Part shown: piece by piece, positions 25,317 to 37,775 of the stretch
How positions within the stretch are numbered: the stretch's first letter is position 1
Layout: each line of letters begins with the position of its first letter
Assembly (NCBI GenBank): GCA_017635465.1
Contig: JAGBLL010000052.1
Coordinates: forward strand, 1-51,781
Direction of reading: 5' to 3'
Source: Bacilli bacterium
GTDB taxonomy: Bacteria; Bacillota_I; Bacilli_A; RFN20; CAG-826
Length of the DNA stretch: 51,781 bases
Notes under the pieces: model-generated
What the model was told of the DNA's origin: nothing
Seen by the model: the letters and a program-made list of their open reading frames with translations, nothing else
The model's database searches: none
Made by a program: the position numbers and the translations under genes

Positions 25317-25988
25317 TTACCTCTTTTCTTTGACAACAATATTATCTTTTGCTTTATAAATGCTATTTTCTGGGACAACACCTCTCACCATGCTTAATGG
25401 ATAAACTTGAGAATGTGGTCCAATGACTGTACCTGGATTTAAGACGGATTGGCAACCAATATCAGCATAATCGCCTAAAATCGCACCGATTTTTCTTAAA
25501 CCTGTTTCATATTCTTCTTCACCGTGTATAACAATATTCTTACCATCGCTCTTTAAGTTAGAGCAGATAGAACCCGCACCCATATGAGCGTAGTTACCTA
25601 AGATGGAATCACCAACATATGAATAATGTGGAACTTGAACGTGATATAAGATAATGGCGTTTTTAAATTCGCATGAATTACCTAATACACAGTTATCACC
25701 ACAGATGAGGTTACCTCTAATATAGGCTCCTGGTCTAATTTCAGTATTGCTACCGATAATAGCTGGAGGAATAATTGTGGCGGTTGGAGAAATGGTAACA
25801 TTTTCACCAACGAGGACACCTTCTTTAAGTAAGGTATATCCTGGAAGACCATTTTCTAAAACTTTCTTAATGATCTCTTTAATTTGTGGAAGTAATTCCC
25901 AAGGATATTTAGCGGCGTCAAAATATTCTCTTAAATATGGAATACCACAGTCGAATAATTCGCTAGTTAATACAACTTTCTTATTCAT
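25317..25988 (-). CDS. Left-handed beta-helix acyltransferase, GlmU acetyltransferase-like
   Basis: 223 aa. A short helical N-terminus (~1-50) is followed by hexapeptide repeats (~55-210). HVQVPHYSYVGDSILG aligns with the catalytic His segment of GlmU (NHLxYIGD), and YAHMGAGSICSNLKSDGKN with its acetyl-CoA-binding loop. The pyrophosphorylase half of GlmU is absent. Probably acetylates glucosamine-1-phosphate made by the preceding GlmM, leaving uridylylation to a gene elsewhere; other LpxA-like acyltransferases are possible. The start at 25988 overlaps the glmM stop as ATGAATAA; the longer frame upstream lies inside glmM. Confidence 0.75.
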   Translation of the reverse strand: MNKKVVLTSELFDCGIPYLREYFDAAKYPWELLPQIKEIIKKVLENGLPGYTLLKEGVLVGENVTISPTATIIPPAIIGSNTEIRPGAYIRGNLICGDNCVLGNSCEFKNAIILYHVQVPHYSYVGDSILGNYAHMGAGSICSNLKSDGKNIVIHGEEEYETGLRKIGAILGDYADIGCQSVLNPGTVIGPHSQVYPLSMVRGVVPENSIYKAKDNIVVKEKR

Positions 25989-27621
25989 CGATGACATATC
26001 CTCTCTTTTTGATGACACTATAGATAGCGTCAATATATTTATCACATTCCGCTAAAGAGCCGTGTTCGACCATGATACGGATAACTGGTTCAGTACCGGA
26101 TTGTCTTAATAACGCTCTACCATTATCACCAATTTCTTTATTCACTTCTTCGAATTTAGCTTTGACAACTTCATCTTCGACAGTAGCGTTCTTATCAGTG
26201 ACTCTGACGTTCTTTGTTTTTTGTGGTAATAATTTAACTGGGGCCACTAATTTAGATAATGTTTCTTTTCTTTCTAAGATTTCTTCTGTGACCATGATAG
26301 CAGTTAAGGCACCATCACCAGTGGTCGCGTATTTTCTAATAATGATGTGACCAGATTGTTCACCACCTAATGAATAGCCCTCGTTCATCATTCTTTCAAA
26401 GACGAATCTATCACCAACTTTGGTTCTTTCTAATCTACAGCCAATGCCTTTTAAGGCTTTTTCAAGACCACTGTTGGACATAATTGTAGCGACGACTGTA
26501 TTCTTTTCTAAAGAACCTTCGCTTTGGAGTTTGCAGGCTAATAAGTACATAATCTTATCACCATCAACTTCTTTACCATTTTCATCAACAGCAATACATC
26601 TATCAGCGTCACCGTCAAAGGCAAAGCCTAAATCTAATTTATTTTCTTTAACGTATTTGCAGAAGTTTTCAATGTGTGTACTACCAGCATTAAAGTTAAT
26701 GTTTAAACCATCTGGATGGTTATTGGTAATAAACACTTGAGCGCCTAATGCTTCAAAAACTGATTTTGCAATCATCCAAGAAGCACCATTAGCGGTATCT
26801 AAACCAATTTTTAATCTCTTCATGGAGTGTTTGGCTAAAGAAATCAAATAACCGATGTATCTATTTCTACCAGAAGAATAATCGTTAATTGTGCCAATAT
26901 CACCACGTTTAGCAAATGGTAAATCACTTTCACCTTCTAAACCGAGTGTTTTGAAATCACCATCTAAATAAGCTTCCGCAAGATAAGCAACACCATCTTC
27001 TAATTTTTCACCATTACCGTTAATGACTTTAATACCATTATCATAGAATGGATTATGTGACGCTGTGATCATGACACCACAGTCAAAGCAATCTTGTCTA
27101 ACAATATAGGACACTGATGGAGTGGTTGTAACGTGTAATAATTCAACGTCCGCACCACTTGATGCCGCACCAGCGGCCACACTATATTCAAGCATATAGG
27201 AAGATCTTCTTGTATCTTTACCAATAACGATTCTTGGTCTATAGCCTGGTTTTTGCATATTGTATTTAGGATTGGAATAGAACCAACCTAAGAATCTACC
27301 AATTTTATATGCTCTATCGGAGTTAAGTAATTCGTTAGCTTCTCCTCTAAAGCCATCTGTACCAAAATATTTGGTTTTAATGTTTTCATCAGGTAATTCA
27401 ATTTTTTTACCTTTATGAATAACAATGTTATCGTCAATCAATTCATCCGCACTGACTTTAAAGATTTGACATAATTCTTTAGTTTTATCTAATGGAGGTA
27501 ATGTATCACCATTTTCCCATTTAGATAATGATTGTCTTGAGACCTTTAAGATCTTAGATAATTCTTCTTGTGAGATGTTGTTAACGATTCTCAAGTGAAC
27601 GATTTTCTCGCCAATTGTCAT
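25981..27621 (-). CDS. glmM: Phosphoglucosamine mutase fused to an N-terminal XRE helix-turn-helix
   Basis: 546 aa: residues 1-60 are a complete HTH_3 domain (ISQEELSKILKVSRQSLSKW), ~61-83 a linker, and ~84-546 a full-length GlmM that interconverts glucosamine-6- and glucosamine-1-phosphate. GlmM landmarks: KYFGTDGFRG, the phosphoserine loop ITASHNPFYDNGIKV, the metal loop FAFDGDADRC, the sugar loop GGEQSGHII and the phosphate loop RQSGTEPVIRI. Fusion of an XRE domain to this enzyme is unusual and could make it an autoregulator. The ATG at 27621 has GGGAGA 8 nt upstream; an ATG 11 codons earlier lacks one. One uninterrupted frame, so not an assembly join. Promoter with an inverted repeat at 27663-27702. 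Confidence 0.93.
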   Translation of the reverse strand: MTIGEKIVHLRIVNNISQEELSKILKVSRQSLSKWENGDTLPPLDKTKELCQIFKVSADELIDDNIVIHKGKKIELPDENIKTKYFGTDGFRGEANELLNSDRAYKIGRFLGWFYSNPKYNMQKPGYRPRIVIGKDTRRSSYMLEYSVAAGAASSGADVELLHVTTTPSVSYIVRQDCFDCGVMITASHNPFYDNGIKVINGNGEKLEDGVAYLAEAYLDGDFKTLGLEGESDLPFAKRGDIGTINDYSSGRNRYIGYLISLAKHSMKRLKIGLDTANGASWMIAKSVFEALGAQVFITNNHPDGLNINFNAGSTHIENFCKYVKENKLDLGFAFDGDADRCIAVDENGKEVDGDKIMYLLACKLQSEGSLEKNTVVATIMSNSGLEKALKGIGCRLERTKVGDRFVFERMMNEGYSLGGEQSGHIIIRKYATTGDGALTAIMVTEEILERKETLSKLVAPVKLLPQKTKNVRVTDKNATVEDEVVKAKFEEVNKEIGDNGRALLRQSGTEPVIRIMVEHGSLAECDKYIDAIYSVIKKRGYVIDE

Positions 27622-27662
27622 AATACTGTCTCCCTTTTTCGTATGCATTAACATTAAAGGTT

Positions 27663-28582: not shown

Positions 28583-29929
28583 TCACACAATTCCTTCTGC
28601 AAGCATTGCATCATAAACTTTTAAGAAACCAGCGATATTAGCGCCTAACGCTAAGTTCTTTGGTTCCCCGTATTTCTTCGCGGTTTCATAGCATTGTCTA
28701 AAGATATTCTTCATAATGCCTTTTAGTTTTTCATCAACTTCTTCAGCTGTCCAAGATAAGTGCATAGCGTTTTGGCTCATTTCTAATCCAGACACCGCGA
28801 CACCACCAGCATTACTTGCTTTACCTGGTGAGAAGATAACATCATTTTCATTAAAGAAACGGATAGCTTCTAAATCGCATGGCATATTAGCGCCTTCCAC
28901 AAGCATATAGCAGCCATTAGCTTTTAATTCTTTAGCGTTTTCTAAATTGATTTCACCTTGTGTGGCACATGGTAAGGCAATATCACATGGTGTCTTCCAT
29001 AAGTCTCTACTGACTTTGCTATATTTAACATTTGGATATAACTTGACGTAATCATTAACGAATTCGCCTTTAGCTTTAGCAAGTTCGATAATCTTATCAA
29101 CATCTAAGCCATTAGGATCACTAACACAACCATTGATATCAGACATACCAACGATAATAGCACCTAATTCTTTAGCCTTTAAAGCGGCCATTGAGCCGAC
29201 TTTACCACTGCCAGAGATAACAACTTTCTTACCTTTAATATCATCATTAAAGTAAGCTTTTAGCATTTCTTCAGCGAAATATAATAAGCCATAACCTGTA
29301 GCTTCTGGTCTATATAAGGAACCACCATAGGAAATGTTTTTACCAGTGAAGACACCAGACCATTCATTTCTAAGTTTCTTATAATAACCAAACATATAGC
29401 CAATTTCTCTAGCGCCGAAACCTAAGTCACCCGCAGGAACATCGGTATTAGGGCCAATATGACGGAACATTTCCGCCATAAAGGACTGGCAGAATCTCAT
29501 CACTTCAGCGTCACTCTTGCCACGTGGATCAAAATCAGAACCACCTTTACCACCGCCCATTGGTAAACCAGTTAAGGAGTTTTTAAATGTTTGTTCAAAG
29601 CCTAAGAATTTAAGAATTGATAAATTAACAGACTTATCAAATCTCATACCACCTTTATATGGACCAATCGCGGAATTAAATTGGACACGGTATCCAGTAT
29701 TGACTCTAATTTTGCCATTATCATCAACCCAAGGCACTCTAAATTGCACAATTCTTTCTGGGACCACTAATCTTTCAAGAATAGCGTTCTCTTCAATTCT
29801 TGGATCCTTATCAACAATGAAATCCATAGAATCTAAGAATTCTTCTACCGCTTGGATAAATTCTTTTTGTTCAGCGTATTTGACTTTCACATCGTCTAAA
29901 ATACGGTTTAAATATTCGTTCTTATACAT
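28583..29929 (-). CDS. gdhA: NADP-type glutamate dehydrogenase
   Basis: 448 aa, hexameric class I size. Makes glutamate from 2-oxoglutarate and ammonia. GPYKGGMRFDKSVNLSILKFL and LPMGGGKGGSDFDPRGKSD hold the substrate Lys residues; PAGDLGFGAREIGYMFG follows; VVISGSGKVGSMAA is the dinucleotide-binding loop; ASNAGGVAVSGLEMSQN is near the C-terminus. The SD AGAGG precedes the ATG at 29929. It is divergent from the tandem RNA that starts 137 bp away. Confidence 0.97.
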   Translation of the reverse strand: MYKNEYLNRILDDVKVKYAEQKEFIQAVEEFLDSMDFIVDKDPRIEENAILERLVVPERIVQFRVPWVDDNGKIRVNTGYRVQFNSAIGPYKGGMRFDKSVNLSILKFLGFEQTFKNSLTGLPMGGGKGGSDFDPRGKSDAEVMRFCQSFMAEMFRHIGPNTDVPAGDLGFGAREIGYMFGYYKKLRNEWSGVFTGKNISYGGSLYRPEATGYGLLYFAEEMLKAYFNDDIKGKKVVISGSGKVGSMAALKAKELGAIIVGMSDINGCVSDPNGLDVDKIIELAKAKGEFVNDYVKLYPNVKYSKVSRDLWKTPCDIALPCATQGEINLENAKELKANGCYMLVEGANMPCDLEAIRFFNENDVIFSPGKASNAGGVAVSGLEMSQNAMHLSWTAEEVDEKLKGIMKNIFRQCYETAKKYGEPKNLALGANIAGFLKVYDAMLAEGIV

Positions 29930-30032
29930 AAGTAAGACCTCTTTTATGGAAAAATAATAACACTATGAAAAACAACATCATACAAAAAACGTATCAAAAC
30001 TATATATTTTTTATATGTAAGATTATCAATCG

Positions 30033-30061
30033 TTTTGAAAAGGTGAGAAATAATGTATAAT
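30033..30061 (+). promoter_or_regulatory. Promoter for the tandem structured RNA
   Basis: TTTTGA (30033-30038), a 17-bp spacer and a perfect TATAAT (30056-30061); an alternative -35 TTGAAA at 30035-30040 gives a 15-bp spacer. Initiation about 7 nt later would start the RNA at the first base pair of helix P1. Confidence 0.7.
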
Positions 30062-30065
30062 GAAC

Positions 30066-30258
30066 TTGTCAAAGGTGGAGAATCAGTGCGCGACCACGAC
30101 GCATCTAGAAATAGATGGCTACTGCGATCCGGGATGGTAACTGCCCCGGTTGACAAAACAAACTAATAATTACCGAAGGTGGAGAATCAGTGCACGACCA
30201 CGGCGCATTCAGAAGAATGGGTACAGCGATCCAGAATGGTAACTGCTCTGGTCGGTAA
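30066..30258 (+). repeat. Two tandem copies of the ~90-nt RNA unit
   Basis: Direct repeat with a 13-nt spacer (30157-30169). Invariant blocks include AGGTGGAGAATCAGTGC, CGACCACG, GCGATCC and ATGGTAACTGC; differences cluster in paired stems. Confidence 0.9.
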
Positions 30259-30261
30259 GCA

Positions 30262-30293
30262 AAAACGTTTCCGATTAAAAGAAACGTTTTTTT
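30262..30293 (+). terminator. Terminator of the tandem RNA
   Basis: Perfect 10-bp inverted repeat AAAACGTTTC (30262-30271) / GAAACGTTTT (30281-30290) followed by T. The long T run is on the plus strand, fixing the direction of the RNA, though the hairpin could also serve the HEPN gene that ends at 30299 on the other strand. Confidence 0.88.
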
Positions 30294-30298
30294 AGTTA

Positions 30299-30643
30299 TT
30301 ACTCATTATCATGCAAAATGAATATGCAGTACTCTTTCAATTTTGTAATATCAGAAGATGATGATTTCCACACTATTTCAAAACTGATGGTCATATAATC
30401 ATGTCCGACCCAATCTCTCATACCTTTGATATCTTTCCACGGCACATCTTGATATTTGAATAGCAATTCATTGGGTAATTTTTTAGCCAATTCGCCGATT
30501 TGAAAAATATTGAAACACACAACGTCTTTCGCGTTTTCATCCTTATAAAAATCATCTTCAGTAATGTTGTTAATTGTTTTTTCCACTCTTTCACAGTGGC
30601 GGATAATTGATTTTAAGATTCCTTTTTCTTTTGTTGTTAGCAT
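30299..30643 (-). CDS. HEPN-domain RNase toxin (DUF86 type)
   Basis: 114 aa, all helical. RDWVGHDY (Arg76, His81, Tyr83) is the R-X4-H-X-Y ribonuclease motif of HEPN toxins; FNIFQIGELAKKLP is the usual helix before it. In HEPN/MNT modules the toxin cleaves RNA until its tyrosine is AMPylated by the MNT partner. Its start overlaps the MNT gene by 7 bp. It ends 6 nt from the terminator of the convergent tandem RNA. Confidence 0.92.
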   Translation of the reverse strand: MLTTKEKGILKSIIRHCERVEKTINNITEDDFYKDENAKDVVCFNIFQIGELAKKLPNELLFKYQDVPWKDIKGMRDWVGHDYMTISFEIVWKSSSSDITKLKEYCIFILHDNE

Positions 30644-31092
30644 AACTTGATTAGGTCCTTTTCGAGTTGTTCTTTAAAATATTCAGGCATTTCTGAGCCA
30701 ATTATTACAAGATCAACCTCTTTGCCTAGTGCTTTTTCTAATTCGTCGCGAAAAGCAGATTGTTTCCATAATGTATCAACATCCCCTTTATCACAATAAA
30801 TGTCGATGTCACTATTTCTTTTAGCCTCGCCTCTAGAATAACTACCAAACAAGTACACCTCTTTTATGCTGTGTTTGTCCATCACCGGCTTAATGATTTC
30901 TTTTATTTGTTTGAGAGTTAAAACACTAGGATGCAAATCTTCCATAATTAAATTAGTGATATAACTATTTTTACTAGAAACACTTTCCAATTTGTTGATT
31001 AGTTCTACGTCACTTCTTTTAACACGGAATGGATACATCTTGTAATTCTCTTTATTGTATTCGTTTATATACCTAGTTTGTCTTCTCTCCAT
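30637..31092 (-). CDS. MNT nucleotidyltransferase antitoxin with N-terminal ribbon-helix-helix-like domain
   Basis: 151 aa. Residues ~5-50 (RYINEYNKENYKMYPFRVKR, then a helix ending in YITNLI) look like an RHH DNA-binding domain, uncommon in front of an MNT. Residues ~57-151 are the minimal nucleotidyltransferase with GS-X10-DxD (Gly83, Ser84, Asp95, Asp97). It should AMPylate and silence the adjacent HEPN toxin; the RHH part could repress the operon. The ATG at 31092 is chosen because the domain starts there and TATAAT lies 12 nt upstream; an upstream ATG falls inside the operator. Confidence 0.88.
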   Translation of the reverse strand: MERRQTRYINEYNKENYKMYPFRVKRSDVELINKLESVSSKNSYITNLIMEDLHPSVLTLKQIKEIIKPVMDKHSIKEVYLFGSYSRGEAKRNSDIDIYCDKGDVDTLWKQSAFRDELEKALGKEVDLVIIGSEMPEYFKEQLEKDLIKLC

Positions 31093-31104
31093 AACCCTAA
31101 TCCA

Positions 31105-31128
31105 ATTATATGCTATCATATATGCTAT
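31105..31128 (-). promoter_or_regulatory. -10 box and direct-repeat operator of the MNT/HEPN operon
   Basis: TATAAT on minus (31105-31110) overlaps two direct copies of TATATGCTAT (plus strand, 31107-31116 and 31119-31128) spaced 12 bp, close to one helical turn. This fits cooperative binding by an RHH autorepressor such as the antitoxin's N-terminus. Confidence 0.55.
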
Positions 31129-31170: not shown

Positions 31171-32382
31171 CTATTTGTTACAAACCATCTTGACCGCTAA
31201 GCAAATAACTTCTGTCGCTAATTTAAGTTCTTCTAATGATGGATAGCTAGGACAAATTCTTATATGTTCATTATTAGGATCTTTATGATATGGATAAGAA
31301 GCACCGACATCTGTAAGTGTTACTCCTAATTCTTTACACGTTTTTACGACTTCTGAGGCGTTTTTAACGTAAAGGGATATAAAATATCCACCTGTCGGTT
31401 TACTCCATCTAGCGATGTCTTTTATTTCTTTTTCAAATATATCTAAAACGATATCAAATTTTGGTTTTAATAATTTAGCGTGTTTATTCATATGTTCTTT
31501 AATGGTTTTATCATCTTTAAAGAACAATGCATGTCGATATTGATTTAATTTATCATAACCAATGGTTTGATATTTTAATGTGTTCTTAATATCTTTGATG
31601 TTATTTTCACTACACCCTAACGCGGAGACACCTGAACCAGGGAAAGTCATCTTAGAAGTTGATGCAAACATATAAACAATTTCTTCATTATGATATTTTT
31701 TACATTCATCATAGATATTTAATATAGGTTCATATTGTTGATCAAAAGATTGTTGGGTGAGGTAGGCTAAATCCCAGTAGATTCTAAAATCATTAGCAGC
31801 GGGTTTTAATTTAGCGAATCTTCTTATCACTTCATCACTATAATTAATACCAGTTGGGTTTGAATATTTTGGTACACACCAGATGCCTTTAACTTCTGGA
31901 TCTTTAATATATTGCTCCACCTTATCCATATCTGGGCCATGTTCATCCATTGGGATATTAATCATTTCAATACCTAATGACTCACATATTGTAAAGTGTC
32001 TATCATATCCAGGAACTGGACATAACCATTTGATATGTTCTTGTTTAGAAAATGGAAGATTATTATTAACACCATGAAGAACACTTTTTTCCACAAGTGA
32101 GGCCATGATATATAAAGAAGAATTGCCGTAAACAATAATATTTTCTTCTTCAATACCCATGATATTAGAGAACATCTTCTTACATTCATGGATACCATCT
32201 AATATGCCATAATTACGATAATCAGCATTATTAATAATTAAATTAGAAGAAGAATTTAATAAATCTAACATTGGTAAAGATAAATCAACTTGCTCTTTAC
32301 AAGGTTTACCTCTCGCCATAGAGATATTAAGATTTAAAGATTTATAATAATTAAATATTTTTAGTAGTTCATTATTGTTCAT
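31171..32382 (-). CDS. PLP-dependent aminotransferase (aspartate aminotransferase type, MocR-like clade)
   Basis: 403 aa, fold type I. MARGKPCKEQVDLSLPMLDL at the N-terminus and the early YRNYGILDGIHECKKMFSNI motif mark the Asp_aminotransf (PF12897) group rather than ordinary AspC. WCVPKYSNPTGINY is the Asn-binding turn and FASTSKMTFPGSGVSA contains the PLP lysine. Probably acts on aspartate or another dicarboxylic amino acid; exact substrate not readable. No SD precedes the ATG. Confidence 0.8.
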   Translation of the reverse strand: MNNNELLKIFNYYKSLNLNISMARGKPCKEQVDLSLPMLDLLNSSSNLIINNADYRNYGILDGIHECKKMFSNIMGIEEENIIVYGNSSLYIMASLVEKSVLHGVNNNLPFSKQEHIKWLCPVPGYDRHFTICESLGIEMINIPMDEHGPDMDKVEQYIKDPEVKGIWCVPKYSNPTGINYSDEVIRRFAKLKPAANDFRIYWDLAYLTQQSFDQQYEPILNIYDECKKYHNEEIVYMFASTSKMTFPGSGVSALGCSENNIKDIKNTLKYQTIGYDKLNQYRHALFFKDDKTIKEHMNKHAKLLKPKFDIVLDIFEKEIKDIARWSKPTGGYFISLYVKNASEVVKTCKELGVTLTDVGASYPYHKDPNNEHIRICPSYPSLEELKLATEVICLAVKMVCNK

Positions 32383-35814: not shown

Positions 35815-36615
35815 TTATTCTTCCTCACTCTTTTGAATTGGCAAACCAACTTTTTCAAATTCTTTAATAATCATTTTTCTCCAGTCTCCGGAATATAAAA
35901 CATATACTAGCCCATCTAAATCTCCTGGACGTTCAACATCTTTCTTTACAATGGCGCACACTTTTTCTCTTGATAATTTGGAAAGCAAATACCCATGTTC
36001 AAAAACAACATTTTGTCTTGCTCTATTCTTAACTTCGTTCGGTTTATTTTTATCATATCCTTTATCACATGGAGAATACAAAACAATGGCATACGCAACA
36101 TTTGAATAAGTCTCAATTTTTTCAATTATTGTTTTTCCTTGATTTGGTTTCTCTTTAAGAATGATTGGATTATAACCTATCGACTCAATAAATGCTTTAA
36201 CATTTCTCATCATGGATTCGTCATGTCCGTGGACAACAAAAACATCTTTGTTATTCTCGATCGAACTATCCAAAGCTTTTGCTTTATTATTTTGCAGTCT
36301 GCTTTTTGCTTTTAACAGCAACTCGTCAAATTCATTGTAACAAGAGGCATATGAAAAAATATCGCTTAGAGAATACTTATCGTAACCGCGTCTCTGATTC
36401 ATTGTCTTTGTAACACTACCGATATCGTTATCAGTATGAATAGCATAGAATCTCTCTATTTCTTTTGGGTTGATTTTTTTACCAGAAAAAACAAATTCTT
36501 CATTATTAAGATAACTAATTAAATACCCATCAATAACAAGATTCTCATCAATCACATCATATTTGGTCAAGAGCTTTCCTGAATGTAAAAAAATCCCAAT
36601 GTGATAATAACTCAT
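35815..36615 (-). CDS. TIR-like nucleotide-binding effector (PF10137 type) with unknown N-terminal domain
   Basis: 266 aa. Residues ~125-245 form the TIR-like domain: DVFVVHGHDESMMRNVKAFI, IILKEKPNQGKTIIEKIE, AYAIVLYSPCD, and RARQNVVFEHGYLLSKL with the probable catalytic Glu206. Relatives act as NAD-cleaving effectors in anti-phage systems (CAP12/Pycsar TIR). Residues 1-110 are an unrecognised, perhaps sensing, domain; no membrane segment. Its ATG overlaps the capG stop (TAATG) and capF begins 5 nt after its stop, so it is embedded in the cap operon. No cyclase is next to it, so the trigger is unknown. Confidence 0.85.
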   Translation of the reverse strand: MSYYHIGIFLHSGKLLTKYDVIDENLVIDGYLISYLNNEEFVFSGKKINPKEIERFYAIHTDNDIGSVTKTMNQRRGYDKYSLSDIFSYASCYNEFDELLLKAKSRLQNNKAKALDSSIENNKDVFVVHGHDESMMRNVKAFIESIGYNPIILKEKPNQGKTIIEKIETYSNVAYAIVLYSPCDKGYDKNKPNEVKNRARQNVVFEHGYLLSKLSREKVCAIVKKDVERPGDLDGLVYVLYSGDWRKMIIKEFEKVGLPIQKSEEE

Positions 36616-37775
36616 TATTCTTTTCTCCACACCATTCTATTAACGATATTTGTGTAGCTTTGAATGATTCTCACTACTTTCATAGAGACACATGTATCAG
36701 TGTAATCTGGACATGGTTTTCCTAATACGTTATTGTTCTTCATTTCTATAGCCATATCTGTAGCTTGTAATAATTCTTTTTCAGTAATACCAGCGATGAT
36801 GAAATCACCCGCTTCAATGGCTTCTGGTCTTTCTGTAGATGTACGGATACAAACCGCTGCGATTGGGCTATTAATTGATAAATAGAAACTGCTTTCTTCA
36901 GGAAGAGTGCCACTATCAGAGACAATCGCTAAAGCGTTCATTTGTAGATTGTTATAGTCATTAAATCCTAATGGTTCATTAACTCTCACTCTTGGATCAA
37001 GTTTAAATCCACTAGCGTCTAATTTCTTTTTACTACGTGGATGGCAAGAATAAAGAATTGGCATATCATATTTTCTTGCTAAAGCATTAATGGCGTTAAA
37101 GAGATTATTGAAGTTCTTATCACTATCTAAGTTTTCTTCTCTATGCGCGCTTAAAAGGATGTATTTATTCTTTTCTAAACCTAAGCGTTTAAGAACATCA
37201 CTCTTTTTAATCTTATCTAAGTTCATAGATAGGACTTCCGCCATTGGGGAACCAGTGACATATGTTCTTTCCTTAGGCATACCACATTCAATTAAATATC
37301 TTCTTGCAGCTTCACTATATGGAAGATTGACATCAGAGATGATATCAACGATTCTTCTATTTGTTTCTTCTGGTAGACATTCGTCTTTGCAGCGGTTACC
37401 CGCTTCCATATGGAACAATGGGATATGTAATCTTTTCGCGTTAATTGCGCTTAAGCAGCTATTTGTGTCACCTAACACTAAGACTGCTTCAGGTTTAAGC
37501 TCCACCATGAGGTCATATGTTTGAGAGATGATATTACCACATGTTTCACCAAGGTTTTTACCAGCGACATGTAATAAGATATCTGGACCACCTAAATCAA
37601 AGTCTTCCCAGAAAACTGTTGATAAGTTTTTGTCATAATTTTGATTTGTATAACAAATACATGTATCTAGATATTCTCTACTTCTTTTCATCACCGCGGC
37701 TAGTCTAATGATTTCTGGACGTGTGCCACAGATGATTAAGAGTTTGGTTTTACCGTTATCTTGCCATTTGAACAT
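36615..37775 (-). CDS. capG: UDP-N-acetylglucosamine 2-epimerase family enzyme (CapG)
   Basis: 386 aa, GT-B fold. LLIICGTRPEIIRLAAVM, VLVLGDTNSCL, HMEAGNRCKDECLPEETNRR, LSAHREENLDS, and SDSGTLPEESSF are WecB/CapG signatures. In the UDP-FucNAc route CapG inverts C2 of the CapF product. The CapE and CapF neighbours distinguish it from WecB. It has a strong SD (AGGAGG), lies 11 bp after capE, and is coupled to the TIR-like gene. Confidence 0.92.
   Translation of the reverse strand: MFKWQDNGKTKLLIICGTRPEIIRLAAVMKRSREYLDTCICYTNQNYDKNLSTVFWEDFDLGGPDILLHVAGKNLGETCGNIISQTYDLMVELKPEAVLVLGDTNSCLSAINAKRLHIPLFHMEAGNRCKDECLPEETNRRIVDIISDVNLPYSEAARRYLIECGMPKERTYVTGSPMAEVLSMNLDKIKKSDVLKRLGLEKNKYILLSAHREENLDSDKNFNNLFNAINALARKYDMPILYSCHPRSKKKLDASGFKLDPRVRVNEPLGFNDYNNLQMNALAIVSDSGTLPEESSFYLSINSPIAAVCIRTSTERPEAIEAGDFIIAGITEKELLQATDMAIEMKNNNVLGKPCPDYTDTCVSMKVVRIIQSYTNIVNRMVWRKE

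Follow-up and report, generated by a model that had tools for sequence, protein, structure and literature searches.

Few families of RNA antitoxins acting on a protein are known. In the type III toxin-antitoxin systems (ToxIN, TenpIN, CptIN and AbiQ), as reviewed in PMC5086642, the RNA precedes the toxin gene within one operon, with a terminator between the two, and the toxins share the ToxN (MazF/Kid-like) fold. The AbiF/RCd22 module of C. difficile (an Abi_2-ncRNA module) already extends this kind of system beyond ToxN while keeping the usual gene order (PMC12373285). Among nucleases of another fold, the predicted RNases of the BECR type (which include the PBECR3 and MuF_C domains of phages) typically have a histidine in a helix and a C-terminal serine or threonine (PMC5512222).

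In this work we analyse an RNA locus found in the window (the whole stretch of DNA studied, 51,781 nucleotides of contig JAGBLL010000052.1, assembly GCA_017635465.1, from a Bacilli bacterium), together with its relatives. The relatives resemble the type III systems in forming an RNA-protein pair with a small predicted endoribonuclease, a pseudoknotted RNA, present in the window in tandem copies, and a rho-independent terminator. Nevertheless, the RNA lies here downstream of the gene, has its own promoter and is followed by the terminator, which is the reverse of all the systems in PMC5086642; the putative toxin is BECR-like rather than of the MazF/Kid-like ToxN fold; the RNA units are 87-145 nt long (about 34-50 nt in type III) and many are single, whereas arrays are typical of ToxIN; and many of the RNAs are orphans. 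AbiF/RCd22 is likewise type III-like and has a short structured ncRNA in tandem, but that ncRNA is a different one and precedes, in one operon, the gene for an Abi_2/AbiD/F protein. The protein of the relatives shares weak profile and fold similarity with PBECR3/MuF_C, including the helix histidine and a Ser/Thr in the last strand, but its chromosomal gene stands alone, outside polyvalent phage proteins, and is paired with an RNA, and its matches are below gathering scores. With type II toxins of the RelE/YafQ/BrnT type it would share a BECR-like fold and presumed RNase action; those have protein antitoxins, whereas none was noticed beside the gene here on unsystematic inspection. We found no description of this RNA-protein pair in the limited open-access literature consulted.

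Results

On the plus strand of the window, positions 30033-30293 comprise a promoter-like sequence (30033-30061, with TTTTGA at 30033-30038, a 17-nt spacer and TATAAT at 30056-30061), a first RNA unit of 91 nt (30066-30156), a 13-nt linker, a second unit of 89 nt with the same architecture (30170-30258) and an intrinsic terminator (30262-30293), whose perfect 10-bp stem pairs AAAACGTTTC (30262-30271) with GAAACGTTTT (30281-30290) around a 9-nt loop and is followed by a T-run up to 30293. An initial annotation, made from the window alone, had described the tandem units, the promoter-like sequence and the perfect terminator stem, and all of them are present in the sequence; a promoter and terminator scanner, used at its own thresholds, returned neither the promoter nor the terminator site. 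The upstream flank is marked by the divergent glutamate dehydrogenase gene gdhA (28583-29929, minus strand; Pfam ELFV_dehydrog). Past the terminator, the next gene is a convergent hepT-like RNase gene, separate from the RNA (30299-30643, minus strand, ending at 30299; Pfam HepT-like, 5.8e-20), and the other flank is marked by an aspartate aminotransferase gene (31171-32382, minus strand; Pfam Asp_aminotransf), which in relatives (L002-L007) comes directly after the RNA. The two units are 87% identical by column, with P1, P3 and P4 changed and their pairing kept. Since the single-sequence folding energy of the window RNA is ordinary (z -0.88), the case for it rests on comparison.

The structure, drawn up from the first 16 units, consists of P1 (in unit 1, 7 bp between 30066-30072 and 30150-30156), the invariant P2 (GTGG/CCAC), a P3a/P3 hairpin, a P4 hairpin and a pseudoknot joining the P2 loop to the P4 loop (CAGT/ACTG in unit 1). 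Including this kissing helix, 95.3% of the cells are paired in the 16 units, a share that drops to 50% or less once the partners are slid. A covariance model (R1), built without the pseudoknot, served to gather 60 units, 56 of them distinct, in the window and at loci of an independent pattern scan; it scores the window units at 108.8 (unit 1) and 96.9 bits (unit 2). Across the 56 distinct units, 95.5% of the cells of the full structure are paired (29-49% in slid versions; none of 500 shuffles reached this value) and 21 of the 29 pairs show two-sided changes, so that the covarying helices and the free-standing, tandem structured RNA that had been proposed are borne out far beyond chance. The pseudoknot helix taken alone has 87.9% of its cells paired, and four of its five pairs covary with two-sided changes (e.g. 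columns 20/94, with A-U in 29 and G-C in 25 units). Because this covariation appears even though the model omitted the pseudoknot, the kissing interaction, which had been raised only as something the two loops could do, is on comparative grounds a real, covarying pseudoknot.

A plain DNA search found the RNA in 12 of 59 relatives, and the covariance model found it at 120 places in 64 of 196 genomes of the same bacterial family. Class-wide it occurs in 6 of 296 genomes, all six from the window's family, and a scan of 84,980 species for the core pattern yielded 82 stretches, almost all of them in genomes of uncultured Bacilli, Erysipelotrichaceae or Bacillales that come largely from rumen and gut samples; a dozen or so of these stretches, in GC-rich unrelated taxa, were taken as chance matches. 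No credible Rfam match was obtained for the window RNA at gathering or permissive thresholds, and among 14 related or variant RNA loci Rfam recognized tRNAs only, in agreement with the earlier statement that the unit fits no known class. PADLOC and NCBIfam searches gave no match either. An origin in phages or plasmids was considered and rejected, no match being obtained for the RNA in IMG/VR, GenBank phages or PLSDB plasmids, nor for the protein described below in phages. The RNA is a previously undescribed family of uncultured gut and rumen Bacilli, and both it and its partner protein are essentially confined to the window's bacterial family. Two units are found in the window, in its sister genome (G005) and in G066, three at G005:C6 and one at many loci; long-P4, P2-insert and short subtypes can be distinguished, and the subtype goes with the subgroup of the neighbouring protein.

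At most loci, an open reading frame for a protein of about 125 residues ends just 5' of the RNA. Searched on its own, this protein occurs at 63 places in the 196 family genomes (adjoining fragments of one broken gene being counted as one place), and at 58 of them the RNA follows 21-176 nt downstream, mostly 33-46 nt, on the same strand. This genetic pairing of the RNA with a small toxin-like gene is directly seen, the antitoxin role of the RNA being predicted. The five remaining places include two with variant RNAs directly downstream (L126 and L127, at 24.1 and 25.5 bits), a divergent one that keeps the architecture with a weak RNA-like match downstream (L128, 17.5 bits), one with a doubtful and uncounted 14-bit match on the opposite strand (L129) and one about 130 nt from a contig end (L125). 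Class-wide, the protein was found in 7 of 296 genomes, six of which are the RNA-bearing ones and the seventh a single weak protein match. Distances between the proteins correlate with those between their RNAs (Mantel r 0.80, 0 of 2000 permutations, 25 pairs), a correlation that is confounded by species relatedness.

Five residues of the protein family are invariant (R41, H49, H55, D61 and R91), and position 117 is serine or threonine in 26 of 27 proteins. The AlphaFold model (pLDDT 84, pTM 0.76) has helices, one of which (46-50) carries H49, followed by four strands (74-77, 84-90, 98-105 and 112-121). The best profile matches are PBECR3 (2.4e-4) and MuF_C (2.2e-3), both below Pfam gathering scores as far as shown, and the best Foldseek matches are phage polyvalent/MuF-C proteins (probability 0.96-1.0, E 0.004-0.04). 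In the PDB, Foldseek retrieved the RNase toxin BrnT (probability 0.80) and no strong fold match, with E-values of 0.004-0.3 overall; no profile or fold match to ToxN was obtained. These weak but consistent matches point to, rather than prove, a BECR-like protein, predicted to be a metal-independent endoribonuclease.

The RNA of the relatives appears to be a gene of its own. A -10-like hexamer lies 1-16 nt 5' of P1 in 50 of 59 relatives (4% of random places), an extended -10 precedes P1 in 41 of 59 (2% of random places) and a terminator-like hairpin is found within 70 nt 3' of the RNA in 55 of 58 (10.9% of random places), so that a predicted extended -10 promoter and a terminator would be kept together with the RNA. 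The -10 of the window is placed similarly, 4 nt before P1, but this promoter-like site is without the extended -10 (TGnTATAAT) of the sister genome, and RNA expression at the window is therefore uncertain. Since only a few tens of bases separate gene and RNA, transcription of the toxin gene probably continues into the RNA, and we infer that the RNA is made both in this way and from its own promoter. A divergent promoter (TTGACA-17-TATAAT-like) that drives a short hairpin (GTGAACCCAAG.TGGC...GCC...GGTTCATTTTTT) recurs 5' of the RNA at several loci, as at L009 and L011; the hairpin is possibly a second small RNA or an attenuator. Additionally, tRNA genes lie close 5' of several of the toxin-RNA loci (L126:1801-1873, L015:800-952 and L012:2028-2100), as if the modules inserted, or were carried, near tRNA genes.

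About 50 of the 120 RNA places are without the protein within 1.5 kb (a few of them near contig ends), unrelated genes being found 5' of these orphans, and in 19 genomes the RNA is present and the protein was not found. Pairing is kept equally in orphan and toxin-linked RNAs (97.6% in both), in a comparison whose 23 orphans include about two wrongly assigned ones, as the ORF filter accepted only ATG starts. Broken toxin genes adjoin high-scoring RNAs (G183:C20, 79 bits; G141:C102, 73 bits) as well as weaker RNA matches (G192:C96 and G002:C11). In one of these genomes, G183, the RNA occurs at seven places or more and the protein at several, in different subtypes and with the degraded gene at C20 among them, which makes this genome well suited to a study of cognate pairing.

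The window itself is such an orphan. In the sister genome the order is gdhA, a toxin-like gene at L002:1755-2138 for a 127-residue BECR-like protein, a tandem RNA 89% identical to that of the window, and the aminotransferase gene; in the window the site of that gene corresponds to 29930-30060 and the gene is missing. Alignment of window positions 29925-30075 with the sister locus (L002) shows about 90 bp of near identity beside gdhA and about 560 bp, including the gene, that are absent from the window. In a tree of the aminotransferase, the window groups with the sister (support 96/98) and a second orphan, G006, with three toxin-bearing genomes (95/93), placements that force at least two label changes. 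Most simply, the toxin gene would have been lost twice independently at the gdhA/aminotransferase locus, with the RNA kept. One complete pair of the long-P4 subtype is still present elsewhere in the window genome (G000:C69, locus L015), its toxin-like gene lying at L015:320-688.

In the window, a hepT/mntA-like pair (HEPN-MNT, type VII-like; 30299-31119) separates the RNA from the aspartate aminotransferase gene, and in G005 and G006 the aminotransferase gene directly follows the RNA, without such a pair in between; the window locus has lost one toxin-like gene and gained another toxin-antitoxin pair. Elsewhere, two RNA copies that lack the protein gene follow, at a distance of 7 nt, other genes of toxin-antitoxin type (L116:1665-1976 and L114:1519-1971), one for a YafQ toxin, which is BECR-like too, and one for an MqsA-like antitoxin.

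Discussion

Because nearly every protein gene has the RNA about 35 bases downstream, the window RNA is most likely a protective antitoxin that has lost its toxin gene, and we consider it probable that it is the orphan of a type III-like toxin-antitoxin module in which the gene order is reversed and the toxin has a predicted BECR fold. A protein almost never without the RNA, an RNA often found alone, an RNase-like fold and a pseudoknotted RNA with its own promoter together have the look expected of a toxin and a protein-binding RNA antitoxin. In the intact module, the BECR-fold protein of about 125 residues, a predicted endoribonuclease and presumptive toxin, would be encoded first, and some 35 nt past its stop codon would follow the compact pseudoknotted RNA (about 90-145 nt), transcribed from an extended -10 promoter of its own and ended by its own terminator. 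The RNA, produced in excess from this promoter and also as the 3' part of the toxin mRNA, would bind the RNase and block it. In the window, deletion of the toxin gene has left the promoter, both RNA units and the terminator, and RNA copies retained in this way could guard the cell when the same toxin comes in from outside (anti-addiction).

Other readings of the same data were weighed. The RNA might be a guide, a substrate-specificity cofactor or an activator of the BECR-like nuclease, the pair acting as a ribonucleoprotein effector; the same tight linkage and covariation would then arise, and the compact, highly conserved fold, with its invariant GTGG/CCAC and CGACCACGRCGC core, would suit such a role. 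However, the many RNA places and genomes without the protein, the high-scoring RNAs beside broken protein genes and the lack of any variable guide-like segment in the RNA make this improbable. The number of orphans could also mean a protein-independent function. A base-pairing regulator, either antisense to the mRNA of the protein (as in type I systems) or another trans-acting sRNA, would be expected to be free-standing, with promoter and terminator, and to expose conserved single-stranded stretches, as is found here; but the loops with the strongest conservation are engaged with one another in the pseudoknot, and the predicted duplexes with cognate mRNAs are no better than those with non-cognate ones (start region, -22.9 against -22.8 kcal/mol; coding region, -38.6 against -38.7 kcal/mol). 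A type I antitoxin was rejected on this lack of cognate complementarity, and base-pairing regulation in general seems to us highly improbable.

The idea of a ligand-sensing tandem riboswitch, to which the initial annotation had likened the two units, has in its favour the two adjacent folded units with conserved cores and a pseudoknot as in several riboswitch classes. It is scarcely credible, since the RNA of the relatives ends in a terminator (55 of 58) followed by unrelated, variable genes, its constant neighbour lies upstream and not downstream, and no Rfam class was matched. The accompanying view that the RNA controls nothing in cis holds; of the two roles offered for it there, ligand sensing is unsupported and protein titration comes close to the explanation preferred here. 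The constant partner gene, directly upstream of the RNA in the relatives and deleted in the window, is invisible from the window alone. There remains the question of whether this particular copy is a functionless, decaying remnant of a lost module, which would fit the antitoxin explanation for the family and not for the window. The toxin gene is deleted in the window and in G006, the extended -10 of the sister is altered in the window, and for the window taken by itself the loss may be recent; against this, the helices are intact in both units, whose model scores are no lower than that of the toxin-linked sister copy, and orphans in general are paired as well as linked copies, so that we regard a remnant as unlikely.

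Extending the orphaned-antitoxin reading beyond the window, we tentatively propose a new class of RNA-protein toxin-antitoxin systems, in which BECR-fold toxins would be silenced by a downstream pseudoknotted RNA with its own promoter, and toxin-free RNAs would be widely kept across the family as inherited anti-addiction protection. If true, this would add a new, RNA-based means of inactivating enzymes of the very common BECR RNase fold, and the orphan RNA of many gut and rumen Bacilli would be explained. Rfam would gain a pseudoknot class that is new and strongly covarying, and the frequency of toxin-free RNAs allows RNA-based anti-addiction to be tested directly.

Two other genes of the window, both on the minus strand, deserve mention. 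One is a 557-residue open reading frame (25981-27654) in which an N-terminal XRE-type helix-turn-helix precedes an entire phosphoglucomutase/phosphomannomutase (GlmM-like) enzyme; the fusion is unusual, and its neighbours are a sugar-nucleotide enzyme gene and a NagB-like gene. The other (35815-36630) encodes a protein with a TIR domain (CAP12/Pycsar effector TIR, E 9.5e-36) that may act as an effector against phages.
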